Below are positions 4,994 to 29,082 of a DNA stretch of 64,000 nucleotides, one piece after another; positions within the stretch are counted from its first letter, which is position 1, and every line of letters starts with the position of its first letter. The translations under genes were made by a program, and so were the position numbers. The notes under the pieces were generated by a model, which saw only the letters and a list, made by a program, of their open reading frames with translations, had not been told where the DNA came from and did not search any database. Origin of the DNA: Terracoccus sp. 273MFTsu3.1 (GTDB taxonomy: Bacteria > Actinomycetota > Actinomycetes > Actinomycetales > Dermatophilaceae). The stretch spans positions 620,001 to 684,000 of the forward strand of contig NZ_KB911820.1 of NCBI RefSeq assembly GCF_000383675.1, written 5' to 3'.

Positions 4994-6825
4994 GCCGCCA
5001 CCGCCTGCACCTGCTCGTAGACCTGTCCGTATGCCGCCGCGGCCACCGACCACGTCCGCTCGCTCGCGACGTGGTCGCGTCCGTTCGCCCCGAGCCGGTG
5101 ACGACGGCCCGGGTCGGCGACGAGCTCGCCCAGCGCCTGCGCGAGCAGCTCAGGGTCGGCGCCGCTGACGACGACCCCGCGATCCGGTCCGACGAGCTCG
5201 CGCAGCGGCGGGAGGTCCGTGACGACGACAGGACGTCCGAGCGCCATCGCCTCGAAGGGCTTGAGGGGCGGCACGAGGGCGGTGACCGGCGTCGCCCGGC
5301 GGGGCACGCAGAAGACGTCGATGGCCGCGTGGTGCTCGTGGGTGCGGCCGTGCGGCACCCGTCCGGTGAGGACGAAGCGCGTCCTCGTGCCCGACCGGCG
5401 CAGCTCGGCGGCGCGGCGTGTCAGGCGCTCGCGGGCGGGACCGTCCCCGACGACGAGGACGACGAGCCGGGCGTCGTCGAGCAGGCCACCCGCGTCGAGG
5501 AGCACGTCGAGGCCCTCGTAGGCGTTGAGGGTCGACACCGTGCCGACGACGACGTCGGTGGGGCGGATGTCGAGGGCCTGGCGCACGGGCCCGCCGTCGA
5601 CGACGTCGGTGAGCAGGGCGTCGGGGACGCAGTTGCCGACGACGTGGACCCGTGACGGGTCGACGCCGCGCGCGACGACGTCGTCACGCATGCTCTGCGA
5701 GAGGGTGACGACGGCGTCGGCGAGCGAGAGGCAGCGCGTCTCGGTCCGGCGGGTCCAGCGGTAGAAGTCGCTGTCGGCGTCTCCGCCGCGTGTGCGCCAC
5801 GTGTCCTCGAGGAACCCACGGGCCTCGTAGACCACGGGCACCCCGAGGCGCCGACCGGCGAGCAGGGCGGCCTGTGCGTTGACGTGCTTCGAGTGGGCGT
5901 GGAGGACGTCGGCACCCACGGAGCGGGCGAGCGCGGCGACCGTGACGGCATACGCCTGCAGGTGGCGGTCCGGGAGGTCGAGCCGGCGTCCGGCCGCGAG
6001 GTCGCGGTGGTAGGGCACGCCTGCGAGCGTCGTGAACGGCGCGGCGCCGAGGTGTCCCTGAGCCACGGGGAAGCCCGGCGGGGTGCACACGTGGGCGTCG
6101 ATCCCGGCGGTGCGCTGCGCGGAGACGAGGCCCTGCGTGCGCACCGTATAGCCGGCCTGCACCTCGGGAAGCGAGTTCGTGACGACGTGGACGACGGAGG
6201 TGCGGCCGGCCGTGGCCAGAGCCCGGCGGGGACCGTCGGTCGCGGCGGGCAGTCCGTCGATGGCCGCGCCCGTCAGGACGGAGCGCTCGCCGACGAGCCA
6301 GCGGCGATGCGCTCGGGCGGCCGGGTTGCGCAGGCCCTCGAGGGCGCGCTGCGCACCGCCGACGTCGCCCGCGGCGTGCGCGAGGTAGGCGGCGGCAGAC
6401 CCGGTGGTCGCCTTCCTGAAATCGCTTGCGGGGCCGTCGATCCCGGCCAGCTGGCCCGTCGCGGCCGCAGCCGCGAGGAGGTGCTGTGCCCGGCGGGGAC
6501 CCGCGCCACGAAGCTCATCCGTGAGGCGGCGCCGGGCGAGCTCGCGCTGTCCGGAGGCCGCCGCGGCGATGACGGACAGCGGCCCGCGGCTGCGCCGGCT
6601 CAGCTCGCGCTGGGCGCCTGCCGGGAGCACCCGGGCGCCGACCCACACCGCCTGCCACGGGTTGCGGGCGAGGTGGGAGCGGGCCACGCACGCGGCGACG
6701 GGAAGGTTGGCGACGAGCAGTGCCGTCGTGGTCGGGACGTCACCAACTGTTCGACTCCCCGTTGCATCGCGTGGACCGGGGGCGCCGAGCGCGGATGCCA
6801 CACTGGCGCCGAGTCTGGAGGTCAC
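4990..6825 (-). CDS. Large GT4 glycosyltransferase with helical N-terminal extension
   Basis: First gene of the minus-strand polysaccharide operon, about 611 residues. Residues ~1-230 form an Ala/Arg-rich, probably alpha-helical region with no motif I recognise. Residues ~245-610 are a GT-B enzyme: SVVHVVTNSLPEVQAGYT, then VLHAHSKH and VVYEARGF in the N-lobe. The C-lobe has VGTVSTLNAYEGLDVLLDA, VVGDGPARE and PLKPFEAMALGRPVVVTDLP, the donor-binding motif. The start is uncertain. GTG at 6825 is chosen because earlier in-frame codons run into the divergent gene; there is no good Shine-Dalgarno site, but a CAACGT box lies 7 nt upstream. Polysaccharide assembly is the likely role. Confidence 0.8.
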   Translation of the reverse strand: MTSRLGASVASALGAPGPRDATGSRTVGDVPTTTALLVANLPVAACVARSHLARNPWQAVWVGARVLPAGAQRELSRRSRGPLSVIAAAASGQRELARRRLTDELRGAGPRRAQHLLAAAAATGQLAGIDGPASDFRKATTGSAAAYLAHAAGDVGGAQRALEGLRNPAARAHRRWLVGERSVLTGAAIDGLPAATDGPRRALATAGRTSVVHVVTNSLPEVQAGYTVRTQGLVSAQRTAGIDAHVCTPPGFPVAQGHLGAAPFTTLAGVPYHRDLAAGRRLDLPDRHLQAYAVTVAALARSVGADVLHAHSKHVNAQAALLAGRRLGVPVVYEARGFLEDTWRTRGGDADSDFYRWTRRTETRCLSLADAVVTLSQSMRDDVVARGVDPSRVHVVGNCVPDALLTDVVDGGPVRQALDIRPTDVVVGTVSTLNAYEGLDVLLDAGGLLDDARLVVLVVGDGPARERLTRRAAELRRSGTRTRFVLTGRVPHGRTHEHHAAIDVFCVPRRATPVTALVPPLKPFEAMALGRPVVVTDLPPLRELVGPDRGVVVSGADPELLAQALGELVADPGRRHRLGANGRDHVASERTWSVAAAAYGQVYEQVQAVAA

Positions 6826-6901
6826 GCACCGAACGTTGCAGTCCCACCCCCAACGGCGGACCGGCCCAGGCGGAACGTCAGTCGAACAGAGAGAGAAGTT
6901 T

Positions 6902-8785
6902 GTGGTGAACACGCGGCAGCGAGTGCTGTCCGACCTCGACCGGGCTCGGAGTGCAGCAGTGCGGGCGGCCCGGGATCCCCAAGCGCGACAGGCCCTTCCG
7001 CGCAAGGTGCGCACGGAGATCGAGCGGCGACTACCCCGGGTGAGGTCGGCGCGGTTGCGCGTCGACCTGCCGCGGCCCGAGCTCCCTCGTGGTCCGGTGG
7101 CACGTCCTGAGGTCGTCGCAGCGGTCGTCCTCGACGACTTCTCCCAGCTCGCCCTGGGCTACGAGTGGACCCAGGTCTGCGTCACGCCGCAGGACTGGCG
7201 CGCCCAGCTCGCGGCACGGTCGGTCGACCTCCTGTTCGTCGAGTCGGCGTGGGCGGGCAACGGTGGCACGTGGCGCCTCGCCATGACGACCGAGGCCGGC
7301 CCGTCCGCCGAGCTGCGCGCGCTCGTCGAGCACTGCCGGGCGACAGGGATCCCGACGGTCTTCTGGAACAAGGAGGATCCGCCCAACTACGACCTCTTCG
7401 TCGAGACGGCCCGCCCCTTCGACCACGTCTTCACCGTCGACGCGGGGCGCATCCCGGACTACGAACGCGACCTCGGCCACACCCGGATCGGCCTGCTGCC
7501 CTTCGGTGCCCAGCCCCGCATCCACACGCCGGTGCGGCACGGCGCCGGCCGCACCCGCGAGGTCGCCTTCGCCGGGAGCTACTTCGCCGACAAGCACGAC
7601 GAGCGCCGCGAGCAGATGGCCTACGTCCTCGAGCCCGCCCTGCCGCTCGGGCTCGAGGTCTTCTCCCGCCTCGCCGGGCGGGACCCGCGCTACCAGTTCC
7701 CGAGGGCGTATGCCGGAGCCCTCGTCGGGAGCCTGCCGTACCGTCGCATGCTCGGCGCCTACACGGCCTACAAGGTCTTCCTCAACGTCAACTCCGTCAC
7801 CGAGTCGCCGACGATGTGCGCCCGCCGGCTCTTCGAGCTGTCCGCCGCGCAGACGCCGGTGCTCTCCGGGCCGGCCGCCTCGGTCGAGCCGTTCTTCGGT
7901 GACACGGTCCGCGTCTCCCGCAGCGCCGAGGAGACGACGCGCGAGCTGCGGGCGCTCCTCCAGCACGAGGACTACCGCGACCGGCTCGGACTGCGTGCCC
8001 ACCGCCGGGTGCTCGACGCCCACACCTACGGGCACCGCGTCGACACCGTGCTGGCCGCCGTCGGCCTCGAGACGCCGGCCCGCGACCGCGGCATCTCGGC
8101 GGTCGTCCCGACGATGCGTTCCGGCCAGGTCGACCACGTGCTGGGTTTCGTCGCGGCCCAGGCCCATGCGGAGACCGAGCTCGTCCTCGTGACGCACGGT
8201 TTCGAGCTGGGTGGCGACGACGTGCGTCGTCGGGTCGAGGCCGCCGGGCTCGACCCGAGCCGTGTGGTCGTCGTCGCGCGGCCCTCCACCGACACCCTCG
8301 GGGCGTGCATGAACGCCGGCGTCGAGGCCGCGTCCGGGCGCTACGTCGCCAAGATGGACGACGACAACGTCTACGCCGAGCACTACCTCCGCGACCTCGT
8401 CCGCGCCTTCGACTACACCGACGCCGCCGTCGTCGGGAAGTGGGCGCACTACGCGCACCTCACCGCCACGGGGGCGACGCTGCTGCGCTTCCCCGACGCG
8501 GAGCACCGCTACGTCGACCTCGTCCAGGGCGGCACCCTGCTCCTCGAGCGCGACGTCGCCGCGCGGCTGCGGTTCGAGGACCTGCCGCGCCGGGTCGACA
8601 CGACGTTCCTCGACAAGGTGCGCGCCGAGGGCGGCCGCGTCTACTCGACGGACCGCTTCAACTTCGTGTCGGTGCGCGCGTCGACACCGGACGGCCACAC
8701 GTGGCCGATCTCGGACGTCGAGCTGCTCTCTCGCCGTGGGGTCCTCGCGTTCCACGGCGACCCCACCGTCCACGTCACCGTCTGA
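6902..8785 (+). CDS. Two-domain glycosyltransferase: CgeB-like domain plus GT2 domain
   Basis: About 627 residues. The first ~390 resemble the spore maturation protein CgeB/GT1 group: a DLLFVESAW element, VFWNKEDPPNYDLF, FDHVFTVDAG and VAFAGSYFADKH, then TAYKVFLNVNSVTES and SAAQTPVLSG. Residues ~395-625 are a family 2 glycosyltransferase with ISAVVPTMRS, NAGVEAASGRYVAKMDDDN (the DxD metal and sugar-nucleotide site near residue 485) and a late GGTLLLERD. Two transferases in one chain suggest sequential sugar additions. GTG codons at 6902 and 6905 are both possible; GAGAGAAG lies 5-8 nt upstream. The gene is divergent from the export operon and 10 nt upstream of the next gene. Confidence 0.82.
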   Translation: MVNTRQRVLSDLDRARSAAVRAARDPQARQALPRKVRTEIERRLPRVRSARLRVDLPRPELPRGPVARPEVVAAVVLDDFSQLALGYEWTQVCVTPQDWRAQLAARSVDLLFVESAWAGNGGTWRLAMTTEAGPSAELRALVEHCRATGIPTVFWNKEDPPNYDLFVETARPFDHVFTVDAGRIPDYERDLGHTRIGLLPFGAQPRIHTPVRHGAGRTREVAFAGSYFADKHDERREQMAYVLEPALPLGLEVFSRLAGRDPRYQFPRAYAGALVGSLPYRRMLGAYTAYKVFLNVNSVTESPTMCARRLFELSAAQTPVLSGPAASVEPFFGDTVRVSRSAEETTRELRALLQHEDYRDRLGLRAHRRVLDAHTYGHRVDTVLAAVGLETPARDRGISAVVPTMRSGQVDHVLGFVAAQAHAETELVLVTHGFELGGDDVRRRVEAAGLDPSRVVVVARPSTDTLGACMNAGVEAASGRYVAKMDDDNVYAEHYLRDLVRAFDYTDAAVVGKWAHYAHLTATGATLLRFPDAEHRYVDLVQGGTLLLERDVAARLRFEDLPRRVDTTFLDKVRAEGGRVYSTDRFNFVSVRASTPDGHTWPISDVELLSRRGVLAFHGDPTVHVTV

Positions 8786-23999: not shown

Positions 24000-24665
24000 A
24001 TGCCCGCTGACGGCGCGACGTGCCTCGCGACCCGCTGCTTCTGCGAGCTCGCCCGCCCCGACGGCATCGCCCAGCCGGCCGACGCGTGGTCGTCCCTGGC
24101 CTTCGTCGTGGCAGGGGTCGCCGCAGCCGCGGTCCTGCGTCCCGCCGCGCGTCCGGAGCGCGTCCTCGTCCCGCTCCTCGCGGTCGCGCTCGTCGCCGTC
24201 GGGATCGGCAGCTTCGCCTTCCACGCGACCCTGACGCTCTGGGGGCAGTTCGTCGACGTCCTCCCGATGTATGCCGTGGGGTGCGTCCTGCTCGCCGGTG
24301 CCCTGGTGCGCCTGCGCCGCGTCACGCCGCGCGTGGCCGTCCTCGGCGGGGTCGCCCTCCTCGCGGCCCTCGGCGTCCTGCTCTGGCTGTGGCCCGAGTC
24401 GCGACGGGTGCTCTTCGCCGCGGTCCTGCTCCCCGGCATCGTCCTCGAGCTGGTGGCCGCCCCGGGCCGTGACGGCGGAGCGCGCTGGCTGCGCGTCGGG
24501 CTGGGACTGCTCGTGACGGCATACGCGCTCTGGCTCCTCGACCAGGCGGGTCTGCTCTGCGACCCGACGAGTCCGCTGCAGGGGCACGCGGCGTGGCACG
24601 TCCTCGGCGCCGGCGCCGGGTGGTGCCTCGCGCGGCACTGGGCGACCCGTAGGTTGGTGGCATGA
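24000..24665 (+). CDS. Ceramidase-like (CREST superfamily) membrane protein
   Basis: 221 residues with about seven hydrophobic segments. It matches the alkaline ceramidase pattern: an early [20 protein letters not shown], the serine and histidine in [11 protein letters not shown] (about residues 69-75), an aspartate in the segment [11 protein letters not shown], and a final [11 protein letters not shown] with two histidines four apart. In the superfamily these Ser, Asp and three His residues form a zinc hydrolase site, and all are present. The lipid amide cleaved in a bacterium that probably lacks sphingolipids is unknown. It is first in a three-gene coupled set; its stop overlaps the ankyrin gene start as ATGA. 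Confidence 0.75.
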
Positions 24666-25060
24666 CGGAGTCGCCGCTCATGCCGGAGCAGCAGGGGCAG
24701 ATCGTGGCGGTCGCGATGGACATGGCACGCGACGGGCGCACGGCCGACCTCGTCGAGTTCCTCGACCACGGCTTCCCGCTCGACCAGCAGGACCCCGCCG
24801 GCAACACGCTCGTCATGCTCGCGGCCTACCACGGTCACCTCGACACGGTCACGACCCTCGTGGACCGCGGCGCCGACGTCGACCGCCGCAACGACCGGGA
24901 CCAGTCCCCGGTGGCCGGTGCGATGTTCAAGGGCGAGGACGAGGTCGTCAAGGTCCTCGTCGCGGCGGGCGCCGACCTCGACGCCGGCTCGCCGACCGCG
25001 CGTGCCACGGCCCAGCTGTTCGGGCAGCAGCACCTCATCGACGGAGAGGACCGACCGTGA
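24662..25060 (+). CDS. Small ankyrin-repeat protein
   Basis: 132 residues, no signal peptide, with about three ankyrin repeats. LVEFLDHGFPLDQQDPAGNT, LVMLAAYHGHLDTVTTLVDRG and VVKVLVAAGADLDAGSP show the repeated helix-turn-helix and the GADVD-type loops. Ankyrin domains bind proteins; the partner may be one of the two membrane proteins co-translated with it (4-nt overlaps on both sides). Similar short ankyrin proteins are common in actinobacteria and their function is not established. Confidence 0.82.
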   Translation: MTESPLMPEQQGQIVAVAMDMARDGRTADLVEFLDHGFPLDQQDPAGNTLVMLAAYHGHLDTVTTLVDRGADVDRRNDRDQSPVAGAMFKGEDEVVKVLVAAGADLDAGSPTARATAQLFGQQHLIDGEDRP

Positions 25061-25305
25061 CCGACCCGCAGGACACCGGGGCGCGCTCGCGCTTCGTCAT
25101 CAACCTCGTCGGCGTCATCGGCATCGTCTTCGGCGTGCTCCCGATCGTGCGCTACCTGCTCGACCTGTCGCTCTTCGAGTTCACCGTCGCGCCGTACGAG
25201 TGGCTCCAGCTCGAGGGGGCGGCACGGTTCATCCCGCCCGGGATGGTCCTCGTCGCGTGCATCGTCCTGGCCTACGTCCTCGAGCAGCGGCTCTCCCGCG
25301 ACTGA
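25057..25305 (+). CDS. Small two-helix membrane protein of unknown function
   Basis: 82 residues starting at a GTG that forms a GTGA overlap with the ankyrin gene stop, which fixes the start. Two hydrophobic segments (about 13-35 and 60-77) flank a short acidic/aromatic loop (FEFTVAPYEWLQLEGAARF). No motif is recognised. Translational coupling to the ankyrin and ceramidase-like genes suggests a shared role in the membrane. Confidence 0.7.
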   Translation: MTDPQDTGARSRFVINLVGVIGIVFGVLPIVRYLLDLSLFEFTVAPYEWLQLEGAARFIPPGMVLVACIVLAYVLEQRLSRD

Positions 25306-25366: not shown

Positions 25367-28159
25367 ATGTCGGTCCGGGCCTCCCTCCTCGCCGCGCTCG
25401 TCCTCGGGTCGAGCCTGGCGATCGCGCCCGCGCCGACCGCCCGCGCCGATCCGGTGGCTCCCGAGGTCACGACGGTGCCCGTCGGCGCCGAGCCCGACGG
25501 CACGGCCGTGCGCCTCGACGTCTCCGTGTGGCCGCAGTCGAGCGGCAAGCACCCGGTCGTGCTGCTCGCCCACGGCTTCGGCGGCACCAAGGACTCGGTG
25601 ACGAGCCAGGCCAACGACCTGCACGACCGCGGCTACGTCGTCATCGCGTGGAGCGCTCGTGGACACGGCGCGTCCGGCGGTCGCATCCACCTCAACGACC
25701 CGGCCTACGAGATCGCTGACGCGAGAACGCTGCTCGACCTCGCGGCCAAGCGATCCGACGTCGAGCTCGACGGCCCGGGAGACCCCCGCGCCGGGGTCAT
25801 GGGGGCCTCCTACGGCGGCGCCCTCGCCCTCATGCTGGCAGGCTCCGACCGGCGGGTCGACGGCGTCGTCTCGGCCATCACGTGGAACGACCTCGCCGAC
25901 GCCTTCTTCCCGCAGGCCGCCGTGACGAAGCCGGCGACCACCGCTGCCGGGCGCTCGCCGATCGACGTCGCCGGACCCTTCAAGCAGGTCTGGGCGACGA
26001 ACTTCTTCCTCTCGGCGCTCCGGGGAGGCCAGGGTGCGGGTGCCGGCTCCTCCGACTGCGGCCGCTTCGACCCGACGATCTGCCGCCTCTTCGTCCAGGC
26101 CTCCGAGACCGGCACCGCCTCGCCCCAGCTGACGACGCTGCTGCGTGCCCACAGCCCCAAGCCGACGATGAACGCCGTCACCGCGCCGACCTTCCTCGTC
26201 CAGGGGGTCGGCGACTCGCTCTTCGGGCTCGACCAGGCCGACGCCACGGCGTCGGCGCTCGCCGCCTCCGGCACGCCGTATGCCGTCCGCTGGAGCGACG
26301 GCGGCCACGACGCCCCGAGCACGCACGAGGCGGAGGAGGTCGAGGCCTCCTACACGTGGCTCGACCACTACGTCCGCGACAAGGGCGCGCGCGGACCGGC
26401 CCTGCCCACAGCGGCCTTCACGTACGGCACTCCCGCCGGGCGGCCGGGTCAGCCGACGACGCTCCACACCCTCACGGCATACCCGGGGCTGTCGGGCGCG
26501 GCGCTCCGGACGCGCGAGCTGCCACTGACGACGACCTCCGGGACGCTGCTGCACCCGCCCGGAGGGCAGCCCGCGTCCCTCATCGCCGTACCCGGCCTCG
26601 CGGCGCTCGGCATCAGCCTCTCGACCTACCAGATCGCGGCGCTGCCCGGTCAGTCGACGGCCCTCGACACCCAGCCCGTCGCCGAGGCCGCGACCGTGGT
26701 CGGGTCGCCGTCGATGCGACTGACCGTCACGTCCGACGCTCCCGACGTCACGCTCTTCGCGTCGGTGTGGCGCGTCACCGGTGGCTCGGTGACGCTGACC
26801 AACCCGCTCGTCGCACCCGTGCGCCTCGCCGTGACGCCCGGCCGGCCCACCCCCGTGACGATCTCGCTCCCGGCCGCGACCTACGACCTGCCGGCCGGCA
26901 CCCGGTGGCGCGTCCTGCTGACGAGCACCGAGTCGACGTACTCCAACTCGCGGACCCCGAGCGGCATCCGCATCTCGGGGGCCTCGGCGCTCACCCTCCC
27001 GGTCGCGGCCGGTGCCGCGGTCGACGGGGCCGTGGCCGGCGGCGTCGACACCGAGACCCTGCTCGCGTCCGGCGCCCTGGCCGTCCTGCTCCTCGCGGCG
27101 CTCGTCGGCTGGGTCGTGCGCCGTCGCCGCCGGATGCACCGCCCGGCGCGGCCCGACCTCGCCGACGTCCCACTCGTCATCGAGGGACTCGTCAAGACGT
27201 ACGCCGACGGCCACCGCGCCGTCGACGACGTGTCGTGGCGGGCCGAGAAGGGTCAGGTCGTCGGTCTGCTCGGGCCCAACGGGGCCGGCAAGACGACGAC
27301 CATGCGGATGGTCATGGGACTCATCTCCTCCGACGCCGGCAGCGTCCACGTGCTCGGCGAGCCCGTCTCCGCCGGCTCGCGGGTGCTCGCCCGGGTCGGC
27401 GCGCTCATCGAGGGTCCCGGCTTCCTGCCGCACCTCACCGGGCGCCAGAACCTCGAGGCCTACTGGTCCGCCACGGGCCGGGACCCGGAGGACGCCCACA
27501 TCGCCGAGGCGCTCGACGTCGCGGCCCTCGGCGGCGCCGTCGACCGGCCGGTCAAGTCCTACAGCCACGGCATGAAGCAGCGGCTCGGCATCGCCCAGGC
27601 CATGCTCGGGCTGCCCGAGCTGCTCATCCTCGACGAGCCGACCAACGGCCTCGACCCGCCCCAGATCGCGGCGATGCGTCCGATCCTGCGCCGCTACGCC
27701 GAGACCGGGCGCACCGTCGTCGTGTCGAGCCACCTCCTCGCCGAGGTCGAGATGACGTGCACCCACGTCGTCGTCATGCACGCCGGTCGGGTCATCACGC
27801 AGGGGCCCGTCGCCGAGCTCGTCGACAGCGACGACACGACGATCCTCGACCTGCCCGAGCACGTCGCCCACGACGTCGTCAGCGCCGGCGTGCACGCGCT
27901 CGAGGCCGCGGGTGGGGTCACCGAGGTGCGGGTCGACACGCCCACGAGGATCGTCGTCGTGGGCGACCGCGGCCGGGCCGAGGTCGTCGCGGCCGCCGTG
28001 TCGGCGGGGCTGCCCGTCGTCGGCGTCAGCAGCCGCCGGCACCTCGAGGAGGTCTTCCTCGGCGCCATCTCGTCGGCGTCCGCACCGGGTGCGGCCGGCG
28101 AGCCCGGAGACGAGGGCGCGTCCCTCGTCGAGCGATTGAGGCAGGTGAGGGCGCGATGA
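25367..28159 (+). CDS. Secreted S15-like alpha/beta-hydrolase fused via one TM helix to an ABC ATPase
   Basis: 930 residues in three parts. Residues ~1-28 are a signal peptide ending at TARA. Residues ~30-540 are an X-prolyl dipeptidyl peptidase/CocE-type hydrolase with catalytic triad Ser148 (GASYGG), Asp283 (GVGDSLFG) and His314 (DGGHDAP), plus a C-terminal beta domain. A single helix (about 565-585, LLASGALAVLLLAALVGWVV) followed by an Arg stretch puts the rest in the cytoplasm. Residues ~603-880 are a full ABC ATPase: Walker A GPNGAGKTT (636-644), a divergent signature SHGMKQ, Walker B LLILDEP (752-758) and H-loop His789. It overlaps the downstream permease gene by 4 nt (ATGA). ATG at 25367 is used; GTG at 25361 is possible. 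Confidence 0.88.
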   Translation: MSVRASLLAALVLGSSLAIAPAPTARADPVAPEVTTVPVGAEPDGTAVRLDVSVWPQSSGKHPVVLLAHGFGGTKDSVTSQANDLHDRGYVVIAWSARGHGASGGRIHLNDPAYEIADARTLLDLAAKRSDVELDGPGDPRAGVMGASYGGALALMLAGSDRRVDGVVSAITWNDLADAFFPQAAVTKPATTAAGRSPIDVAGPFKQVWATNFFLSALRGGQGAGAGSSDCGRFDPTICRLFVQASETGTASPQLTTLLRAHSPKPTMNAVTAPTFLVQGVGDSLFGLDQADATASALAASGTPYAVRWSDGGHDAPSTHEAEEVEASYTWLDHYVRDKGARGPALPTAAFTYGTPAGRPGQPTTLHTLTAYPGLSGAALRTRELPLTTTSGTLLHPPGGQPASLIAVPGLAALGISLSTYQIAALPGQSTALDTQPVAEAATVVGSPSMRLTVTSDAPDVTLFASVWRVTGGSVTLTNPLVAPVRLAVTPGRPTPVTISLPAATYDLPAGTRWRVLLTSTESTYSNSRTPSGIRISGASALTLPVAAGAAVDGAVAGGVDTETLLASGALAVLLLAALVGWVVRRRRRMHRPARPDLADVPLVIEGLVKTYADGHRAVDDVSWRAEKGQVVGLLGPNGAGKTTTMRMVMGLISSDAGSVHVLGEPVSAGSRVLARVGALIEGPGFLPHLTGRQNLEAYWSATGRDPEDAHIAEALDVAALGGAVDRPVKSYSHGMKQRLGIAQAMLGLPELLILDEPTNGLDPPQIAAMRPILRRYAETGRTVVVSSHLLAEVEMTCTHVVVMHAGRVITQGPVAELVDSDDTTILDLPEHVAHDVVSAGVHALEAAGGVTEVRVDTPTRIVVVGDRGRAEVVAAAVSAGLPVVGVSSRRHLEEVFLGAISSASAPGAAGEPGDEGASLVERLRQVRAR

Positions 28160-29082
28160 GCGAGACCCGTCCAGAGAGCCCGGACGTGAGCCCCGGGGAC
28201 GCGCTGCTCGACGTCATCGAGCCGGCTCCGACAGCAGGGAGCGGCGAGATCCACCAGGTGCGCGACCCGCTCTCGTGGCGGTCCGAGCTGCGCCGGCAGT
28301 GGGGCCGGCGACGCACCATCTGGGCCTTCGGGCTGCTCCTCGCGCTGCCGCTCGTCCTCGTCGGGTCCTTCGCCTTCGGCCAACGGTCGAGCAACAGCCG
28401 CGGCGGCGCCTCGACCAGGATCTTCGACCTCGCCCAGAGCGGGGCCGCCAACTTCAGCCTCGTGCTCGTCTTCCTCGCCTCGGAGCTGCTCCTCGTCCTC
28501 CTCGCCGCCCTCTTCTGCGGCGACGCCGTGCCGTCCGAGGCGTCGTGGTCGTCGTTGCGCTACCTGCTCATCGCGCCGGTCCAGCGGGCTCGTCTGCTCA
28601 CGAGCAAGCTCGCGATCGGGATCGCCTCCACGCTCGTCGCGACGGTCCTGCTGCCGGCGTGGGGCCTGCTCGTCGGCGGCGTCGCCTACGGCTGGGACCC
28701 GCTGACCAACCCGCTCGGCGAGAACCTCTCGTGGAGCCAGTTCCTGCCCCGCCTGGCCCTCGCGATGGCCTACATCTTCGTGACGCTGCTGCCCATCGCC
28801 GCCATCGCCTTCTGGCTCGGGACCCGCTCCGACGCGCCGCTCGCGGCGGTCGGCGGCGCCGTGCTCGTCAGCATCCTGCTCAACATCCTCGACCAGCTCG
28901 ACGCGCTCGACCCCTACCGCAACGCCTTCCCCGGCCACTACTCGCGGGCCTGGCAGGACGCCCTAGCCGTGTCTCCGGACTACACCGACATGGTGCACGG
29001 CGCCCTGTGGGCGCTCGTGTGGGCCGTCGCCTTCACGATGCTCGCCTACCGTCGCTTCCGGCGCAGCGACATCCTCAGCTGA
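28156..29082 (+). CDS. ABC-2 type permease partner of the hydrolase-ATPase fusion
   Basis: 308 residues. After a ~50-residue cytoplasmic N-terminus there are about six membrane segments, with the ABC-2 signature region GDAVPSEASWSSLRYLLIAP and RARLLTSKL, and a later VTLLPIAAIAFWLGTRSDA. A Ser/Arg/Gly-rich external loop (SSNSRGGASTR) follows helix 1. The start codon overlaps the stop of the fusion gene, so the two are translated together. Together they would make one ABC transporter whose ATPase carries an external hydrolase. Direction and substrate are unknown; ABC-2 systems of this type usually export. Confidence 0.87.
   Translation: MSETRPESPDVSPGDALLDVIEPAPTAGSGEIHQVRDPLSWRSELRRQWGRRRTIWAFGLLLALPLVLVGSFAFGQRSSNSRGGASTRIFDLAQSGAANFSLVLVFLASELLLVLLAALFCGDAVPSEASWSSLRYLLIAPVQRARLLTSKLAIGIASTLVATVLLPAWGLLVGGVAYGWDPLTNPLGENLSWSQFLPRLALAMAYIFVTLLPIAAIAFWLGTRSDAPLAAVGGAVLVSILLNILDQLDALDPYRNAFPGHYSRAWQDALAVSPDYTDMVHGALWALVWAVAFTMLAYRRFRRSDILS

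Follow-up and report, generated by a model that had tools for sequence, protein, structure and literature searches.

The 64,000-nucleotide stretch of Terracoccus sp. 273MFTsu3.1 analysed here (contig NZ_KB911820.1, positions 620,001 to 684,000; hereafter the window) carries a gene whose product joins, in one polypeptide, a hydrolase predicted to lie outside the cell and an ATPase of the ATP-binding cassette (ABC) type predicted to lie inside it, and which is directly followed by a gene for an ABC-2 permease. This fusion is shared by a single clade of actinobacterial proteins in which the residues of both enzymes are conserved. By analogy with known transporters, it is proposed to represent an ABC-coupled outside esterase or lipase, in which a complex of two fusion chains and two permeases (2+2) would present a membrane-derived ester to two tethered hydrolases, a reading to which we assign a probability of roughly 0.45.

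The fusion gene extends from the ATG at 25367 to the TGA at 28157–28159, i.e., 25367–28159 on the + strand of the window, to which all coordinates below refer, and encodes a single chain of 930 residues. Its overall domain architecture is near certain, as read from the open reading frame (ORF), Pfam matches, alignments and a structural model. A signal peptide-like N-terminus (residues ~1–28; 25367–25450) precedes an α/β hydrolase domain (residues ~44–340; 25496–26386) and a PepX_C-like β jelly roll (residues ~345–548; 26399–27010), which are followed by a single transmembrane (TM) helix leading into an Arg-rich stretch (residues ~562–590; 27050–27136) and by the ABC ATPase, or nucleotide-binding domain (NBD; residues ~600–830; 27164–27856). 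Matches to Peptidase_S15 (PF02129; residues 44–290), PepX_C (PF08530; residues 426–533) and ABC_tran (residues 620–760) score 57.9, 45 and 100.3 bits against curated cut-offs of 23, 22.5 and 25, respectively. The AlphaFold2 model of the fusion, based on 47 sequences, has a mean predicted local distance difference test score (pLDDT) of 86.1 and contains the α/β domain, the β-rich domain, one long helix at residues 562–590 and the ATPase, with a predicted template modelling score (pTM) of 0.63, at which the relative placement of the domains is not to be read. A preliminary description of the locus, made from the sequence alone, had claimed one polypeptide uniting the two enzymes through one TM helix, and both features are borne out.

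Fifty-six fusions were aligned to assess residue conservation, with the partial loci L020, L025, L058 and L062 left out. The predicted catalytic residues Ser148 (25808–25810), Asp283 (26213–26215) and His314 (26306–26308) are invariant among them, and in a wider set the triad is present in all 104 distinct fused hydrolases as well as in 17 of 17 unfused relatives. On the ATPase side, the Walker A motif GPNGAGKTT (residues 636–644; 27272–27298) is invariant from Gly636 to Thr643 (Lys642 in 56/56), the signature region SHGMKQRLG (residues 733–741; 27563–27589) is likewise conserved in the alignment, and, counting rows with letters at these positions, Asp756 and Glu757 of the Walker B motif LLILDE (residues 752–757; 27620–27637) are present in 55 of 55 and the H-loop His789 (27731–27733) in 54 of 54. 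Because the triad and the ATPase motifs are conserved in this manner, both the hydrolase and the ATPase appear to be under selection. The triad is therefore found where the preliminary description had placed it and the ATPase is complete as claimed, while the loss of triad or Walker residues among relatives, which it had named as a reason to abandon its proposal, was not encountered.

That the join is genuine is indicated by its relatives. A contig scan with the whole fusion as query was evaluated for the best 80 of 139 confirmed relatives, corresponding to 76 distinct loci. The hydrolase is matched in 59 of these (L005–L063), each of which carries the ATPase in the same open frame (59/59), and the remaining 17 match the ATPase only. 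The closest homologues, from two Terrabacter records (L005 and L010), exhibit 97% identity. A whole-fusion query is biased toward fused forms, but a search using only the hydrolase profile, which is free of this bias, agrees. For phylogenetic analysis, only hydrolase frames that span 380 or more profile positions were used (120 fused and 17 unfused, reduced to 121 distinct sequences, i.e., 104 and 17), and the tree was built with FastTree and midpoint-rooted, without an outgroup. All 104 distinct fused tips fall in one clade with a FastTree support of 0.93, which holds just two unfused tips: L110, which is truncated at the end of its contig, and L120. The latter (G433:C11:676000-690000; frame 5946–7805, minus strand) retains the signal-like N-terminus, the hydrolase and the TM helix but ends at the point at which the ATPase would otherwise start, and a search of all frames in its 14 kb revealed neither an ATPase nor a permease; its genome, G433, has a second, fused copy accompanied by a permease (L183). 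No homologues split into separate hydrolase and ATPase genes were seen, L120 being the only member of the fused clade that lacks the ATPase and is not cut by a contig end. Among 16 unfused hydrolase loci fetched with their flanks, 14 are devoid of ORFs that match the profile of the ATPase or of the permease, and L155 and L158 contain one low-scoring ABC ORF each. Since the 104 distinct fused hydrolases form one clade with an intact triad and an adjoining permease, the fusion is not attributable to a lost stop codon, the objection raised in the preliminary description, and an assembly join was rejected on the same clade, the 59 same-frame loci and the unbiased hydrolase search. The tree fits a single ancient fusion event with at least one later loss. 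In two further loci, L161 (G232) and G420:C180, the hydrolase match is split over two frames at profile position ~170–178, near a variable Gly/Ala-rich loop.

With regard to distribution, the hydrolase profile matched 148 of 394 genomes of a class-wide sample at E 1e-40. At 3e-134 or better, 102 places were recorded, of which 99 are in frames of at least 793 residues and three are situated at contig ends; the 99 frames were judged fusion-long by length, and the presence of the ATPase was checked in a fetched subset. Matches of lower score mostly correspond to shorter frames of ~600 residues. In the host family, 52 of 99 genomes match at E 1e-40, a count that includes weak matches without a fusion, and in a phylum-wide sample the hydrolase profile matches 48 of 396 genomes. 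Of 17 loci fetched from outside the class, 11 (L143–L153) encode hydrolase and ATPase in one frame with a permease and six (L154–L159) are unfused, while an eighteenth (L186) is cut by its contig end. The frame in genome G781 is cut by a contig end. The fusion is accordingly present in Actinomycetes and in one or more further classes of Actinomycetota. In a Streptomyces-like genus (g37), a profile of the fusion matches 57 of 61 genomes at E 1e-150, with one match each; 54 of these matches span both halves, those in G893 and G894 proved to be fused when fetched, and that in G850 (a 505-residue frame) covers the second half only. In a family of small genomes (f33; 0.9–2.2 Mb), 12 of 61 genomes match the fusion profile, two of them only partly.

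In the phyla of the loci titled Syntrophomonas, Alphaproteobacteria and Acidobacteria, the hydrolase profile at E 1e-60 matched 0 of 249, 0 of 299 and 0 of 149 genomes, respectively, which is to be read beside the positive results of the same query in the class-wide and phylum-wide samples, as an empty answer alone shows nothing. One fusion locus, L054, is located in a record titled Rubrivirga sp. NP52, a 2.0 Mb genome for which a mislabelled bin is suspected. A scan of viral contigs, performed with two ATPase-motif patterns by which a hydrolase alone is not detectable, returned 17 loci, all matching within residues 585–832, i.e., on the ATPase side, and a tblastn search of a plasmid collection at E 1e-60 returned two records, one of which is 11.85 Mb in size and chromosome-like. 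On these grounds a mobile element or virus was rejected as the vehicle of the fusion.

The hydrolase is predicted to reside outside and the ATPase inside the cell, because several sequence features point the same way. Most homologues, with starts chosen by rule, begin with a hydrophobic signal-like stretch, and the fusions L047 and L052 display a lipobox-like LAAC at the N-terminus, such that a lipid anchor may hold the hydrolase in addition to the TM helix. The mean hydropathy of the linker helix is 2.5, and the count of Lys and Arg is higher after than before it in 56 of 56 fusions (means of 5.1 versus 0.3 per 15 residues), consistent with a positive-inside charge distribution. Furthermore, Cys231 and Cys239 (26057–26083), a possible disulfide, are each present in 103 of the 104 fused hydrolases, and the sole exception, L129, lacks both, a paired loss that would be expected if the two form an extracellular disulfide. 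The C-terminus of the unfused relative L156 (1742–3538, + strand) carries LPATG, then a hydrophobic stretch and lastly Arg residues, which we take to be akin to a sortase cell-wall sorting signal. That of L159, likewise unfused, has the hydrophobic stretch and the Arg residues but lacks LPATG. The topology given in the preliminary description is in this way supported, and its signal peptide stands as a hydrophobic signal-like N-terminus.

The hydrolase was described beforehand as S15-type, which holds for its fold and its Pfam match and less so for its detailed relationships. In a Foldseek search, the PaL lipase (8yzo; E 4.9e-29) ranks ahead of cocaine esterase (2.8e-24), which is followed by the X-prolyl peptidase 6nff (4.2e-21) and by α-amino acid ester hydrolases. 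Sequence comparison ranks the PaL lipase, an MHETase and other α/β hydrolases, including monoacylglycerol lipases, as the best relatives of solved structure. Profile comparison aligns both hydrolase domains with the S15 protein of locus L001, encoded in the same genome as the fusion (probability 96.6, 450 columns), which itself matches Xaa-Pro dipeptidyl-peptidases and whose ASPYY, at a strand end, aligns with ASPYF of 6nff. In cocaine esterase, the Tyr of this ‘SPY’ segment has a role in the oxyanion hole. In the hhalign alignment the fusion family is gapped opposite SPYYLS of the L001 S15 protein, with HGFGG adjacent, so that the S15 Tyr segment is missing from the fusion family at the sequence level, at which the aligned solved PaL lipase has neither motif. 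His69-Gly70-Phe71 (25571–25579) instead occupies the strand end where S15 proteins have the segment, and is found in 56 of 56 aligned fusions (in the wider set, His in 103/104, Gly and Phe in 104/104), residue 69 being His in nine and Asn in eight of the unfused relatives. With lipases and esterases as the nearest solved relatives, sequence and model make an esterase or lipase likelier than an Xaa-Pro peptidase. No β-lactamase family is among the 17 Pfam families listed for the protein at E 0.1, and an S12 peptidase domain is to that extent not indicated. The nearest matches of the NBD are NosF and lipid-moving ABCA ATPases, while its best NCBIfam matches, lantibiotic protection (176.1 bits against a cut-off of 309.75) and DrrA (168.6 against 312.45), fall far below the cut-off.

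The permease gene (28156–29082, + strand; 308 residues) begins within the stop codon of the fusion gene (ATGA). Read from the ATG at 28156, its product matches ABC2_membrane_2 (PF12679) with 44.6 bits against a cut-off of 27.2, and its four Pfam matches comprise three ABC2 families and a weak YbjO, with no FtsX family among them. Its AlphaFold2 model (37 sequences) has a mean pLDDT of 79.3 and a pTM of 0.77, and a fold search with the model places NosY and ABCG2 among the top matches, which are weak (best E 2.1e-3, TM-score ~0.5). The permease is visible in 56 of the 59 fused scan loci; the sequence of the remaining three stops 2, 81 and 1 nt past the fusion frame. In a set of 125 fused loci, of which 109 are distinct when compared over the last 300 residues and which include near-duplicates and some genes fetched twice, the permease adjoins the fusion in 106 of the 106 that have at least 400 nt downstream, and the coupled permease of the preliminary description, which had asked whether it always accompanies the domain pair, is thus a constant partner wherever enough downstream sequence is available to show it. 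Of 52 permeases examined, 43 were given a start, and in 40 of these it overlaps the fusion stop by 4 nt, a count obtained with a rule that favours starts near that stop; the overlap suggests coupled synthesis of the two proteins.

The fusion and permease pair looks self-contained. Across 29 diverse loci no neighbour besides the permease recurs widely, the others being found in at most four other loci, mostly of close kin, for which reason a neighbouring gene cluster is unlikely to make the substrate. One ORF of L032 does match 28 other loci, and is probably a further ABC ATPase resembling those of the fusions themselves. A Pfam scan of ten neighbours returned Aldedh, VWA, MFS, TerC and others; an isochorismatase adjoins the pair in both Actinomadura loci; and a TetR regulator like that of L061 is located upstream in two of 72 loci, as judged with one TetR sequence as query, which other regulators could escape. 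A dedicated cluster or regulator was rejected on these counts. In the window, the fusion is preceded by genes for a membrane protein of the Pfam Ceramidase family (24000–24662, + strand), an ankyrin-repeat protein (24662–25057) and a small hydrophobic protein without a Pfam match (25057–25302), the last two lying between the Ceramidase-family gene and the fusion.

ABC transporters work with two ATPases and two permease halves, on account of which two hydrolases are expected outside. We infer from this a 2+2 assembly in which two fusion chains, with ATPases inside, hydrolases outside and one added TM helix each, would pair with two ABC-2 permeases. ATP turnover would then power the flipping, export or extraction, by the permease, of a hydrophobic compound of the cytoplasmic membrane that bears an ester, and the hydrolases, both tethered beside the exit, would cleave it as it emerges. 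The proposal presumes that the chemistry is that of an esterase and not of a peptidase, that the substrate derives from the membrane and that ATP turnover is coupled to hydrolysis. The hydrolase may process, sense or clear its substrate, the three roles suggested in the preliminary description. A more specific and distinctly more tentative form of it is an old, Actinomycetota-specific machine for the clearance of membrane esters, in which the ATPase, linked to an outside lipase in one covalent chain, would directly pace or gate it and hand membrane lipids or lipid-like compounds over to it, an arrangement that would have arisen independently of YbbAP-TesA. Several points weigh against the coupled esterase or lipase. 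X-prolyl peptidases trail the esterases by a modest margin in the fold search, making peptidase chemistry possible, and the permease model resembles solved permeases weakly. In addition, the lineage of L120, which keeps hydrolase and TM helix but has no ATPase attached, shows that the hydrolase can occur on its own, and the patchy distribution (12 of 61 genomes in f33, about half of the host family) clearly marks the job as dispensable.

Other explanations place the ATP-driven step or the substrate elsewhere. The ABC-2 part might move no substrate at all, ATP cycling instead opening or positioning the outside hydrolase, as in FtsEX and MacB. The NosDFY complex, whose NosY is the nearest (weak) fold match of the permease, has a periplasmic partner, and since the enzyme is attached to the ATPase and not to the permease, NBD movement could act on it directly. 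FtsEX and MacB are indeed described, in the portions of the literature consulted, as mechanotransmission systems, but the mechanotransmitters described there are type VII transporters, whereas the permease here has no FtsX match, and a single TM helix would be a poor lever; such mechanical gating is considered unlikely. Somewhat less credit is given to prodrug activation, i.e., the export of an acyl- or peptidyl-masked natural product that the hydrolase would unmask outside, as for ClbP and ZmaM. The latter, according to the available part of PMC9889268, is a serine peptidase in one chain with an ABC half-transporter. The absence of widely shared neighbours around the 29 loci, a neighbour comparison for which no cluster-finding tool was run, speaks against it, and one match per genome in 57 of 61 members of one genus, together with presence in genomes of 1.3–1.9 Mb, suits a general role better.

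Doubtful to a greater degree is a self-defence function, in which the hydrolase would inactivate foreign or own ester drugs at the surface and the transporter would pump them out. Lantibiotic-protection proteins and DrrA as the best NCBIfam relatives of the ATPase favour it, though far below the cut-off, as does the upstream TetR gene, although its occurrence in just two of 72 loci, by the one-sequence query, tells against it. ABC-2 permeases are mostly exporters, which makes scavenging, i.e., the cutting of outside esters or peptides followed by import of the product, improbable. Some type V transporters do import, as stated in the consulted part of PMC8386196, but no further transport gene recurs beside the pair in the 29 loci.

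Hydrolase-coupled ABC systems are already known, and to that extent the statement in the preliminary description that it knew of no described mechanism has precedents to contend with. According to the accessible portions of PMC12646458, YbbAP-TesA of E. coli joins an ABC transporter to an extracytoplasmic ester hydrolase and is proposed to extract hydrophobic compounds from the membrane and present them to the hydrolase outside. Among described systems, its mode of operation comes closest. Its transporter is of type VII and its TesA is a separate, permease-bound protein, so that it is not a relative, whereas here the hydrolase belongs to another family and is covalently attached to the ATPase, and the permease is of the ABC-2 type. 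Prodrug peptidases of the ZmaM, EdeA and PamJ type, in the part of PMC9889268 consulted, also combine an extracytoplasmic serine hydrolase with ABC parts in one chain; they are S12 peptidases from biosynthetic clusters, the ABC half-transporter being in the chain of ZmaM, and are not relatives either. A Myxococcus fusion of an M1 peptidase and an ABC-2 system (Transporter Classification 3.A.1.145.1), as presented in the available part of PMC3924187, differs in that its C-terminal zinc peptidase is joined to the permease domain (13 putative TM segments). As far as these partial sources describe them, none of the three ties an enzyme across the membrane to the ATPase alone. Cocaine esterase, the PaL lipase and PepX share the α/β hydrolase fold, jelly roll and triad, but their solved members are without a fused ATPase, and the S15 Tyr segment is absent in the fusion; NosF/NosY, ABCA and ABCG belong to the same ATPase fold class and, by a weak match, may share that of the permease, but their ATPases are without an enzyme domain. 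Among the top-ranked results of full-text searches of the open-access literature no account of this fusion was found, and the consulted portions of PMC11878206 and PMC6593405 contain no mention of it. What was not found described is therefore this layout and lineage, the fusion itself included, rather than hydrolase coupling as such.

In a Tsukamurella record the fusion is named only ‘alpha/beta fold hydrolase’ and its neighbour ‘ABC transporter permease’. Such annotation hides the ATPase of an ABC transporter from anyone who reads gene names, despite an old fusion present in nearly all sampled genomes of the Streptomyces-like genus, and a role in common physiology fits better than a tie to a single natural product. 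It is unusual for an outside enzyme to be tied to the ATPase and not to the permease, and this layout poses the question whether ATP turnover inside the cell drives an enzyme outside it. If the substrate is indeed a membrane lipid, the fusion would represent a second and independent solution to the task proposed for YbbAP-TesA.

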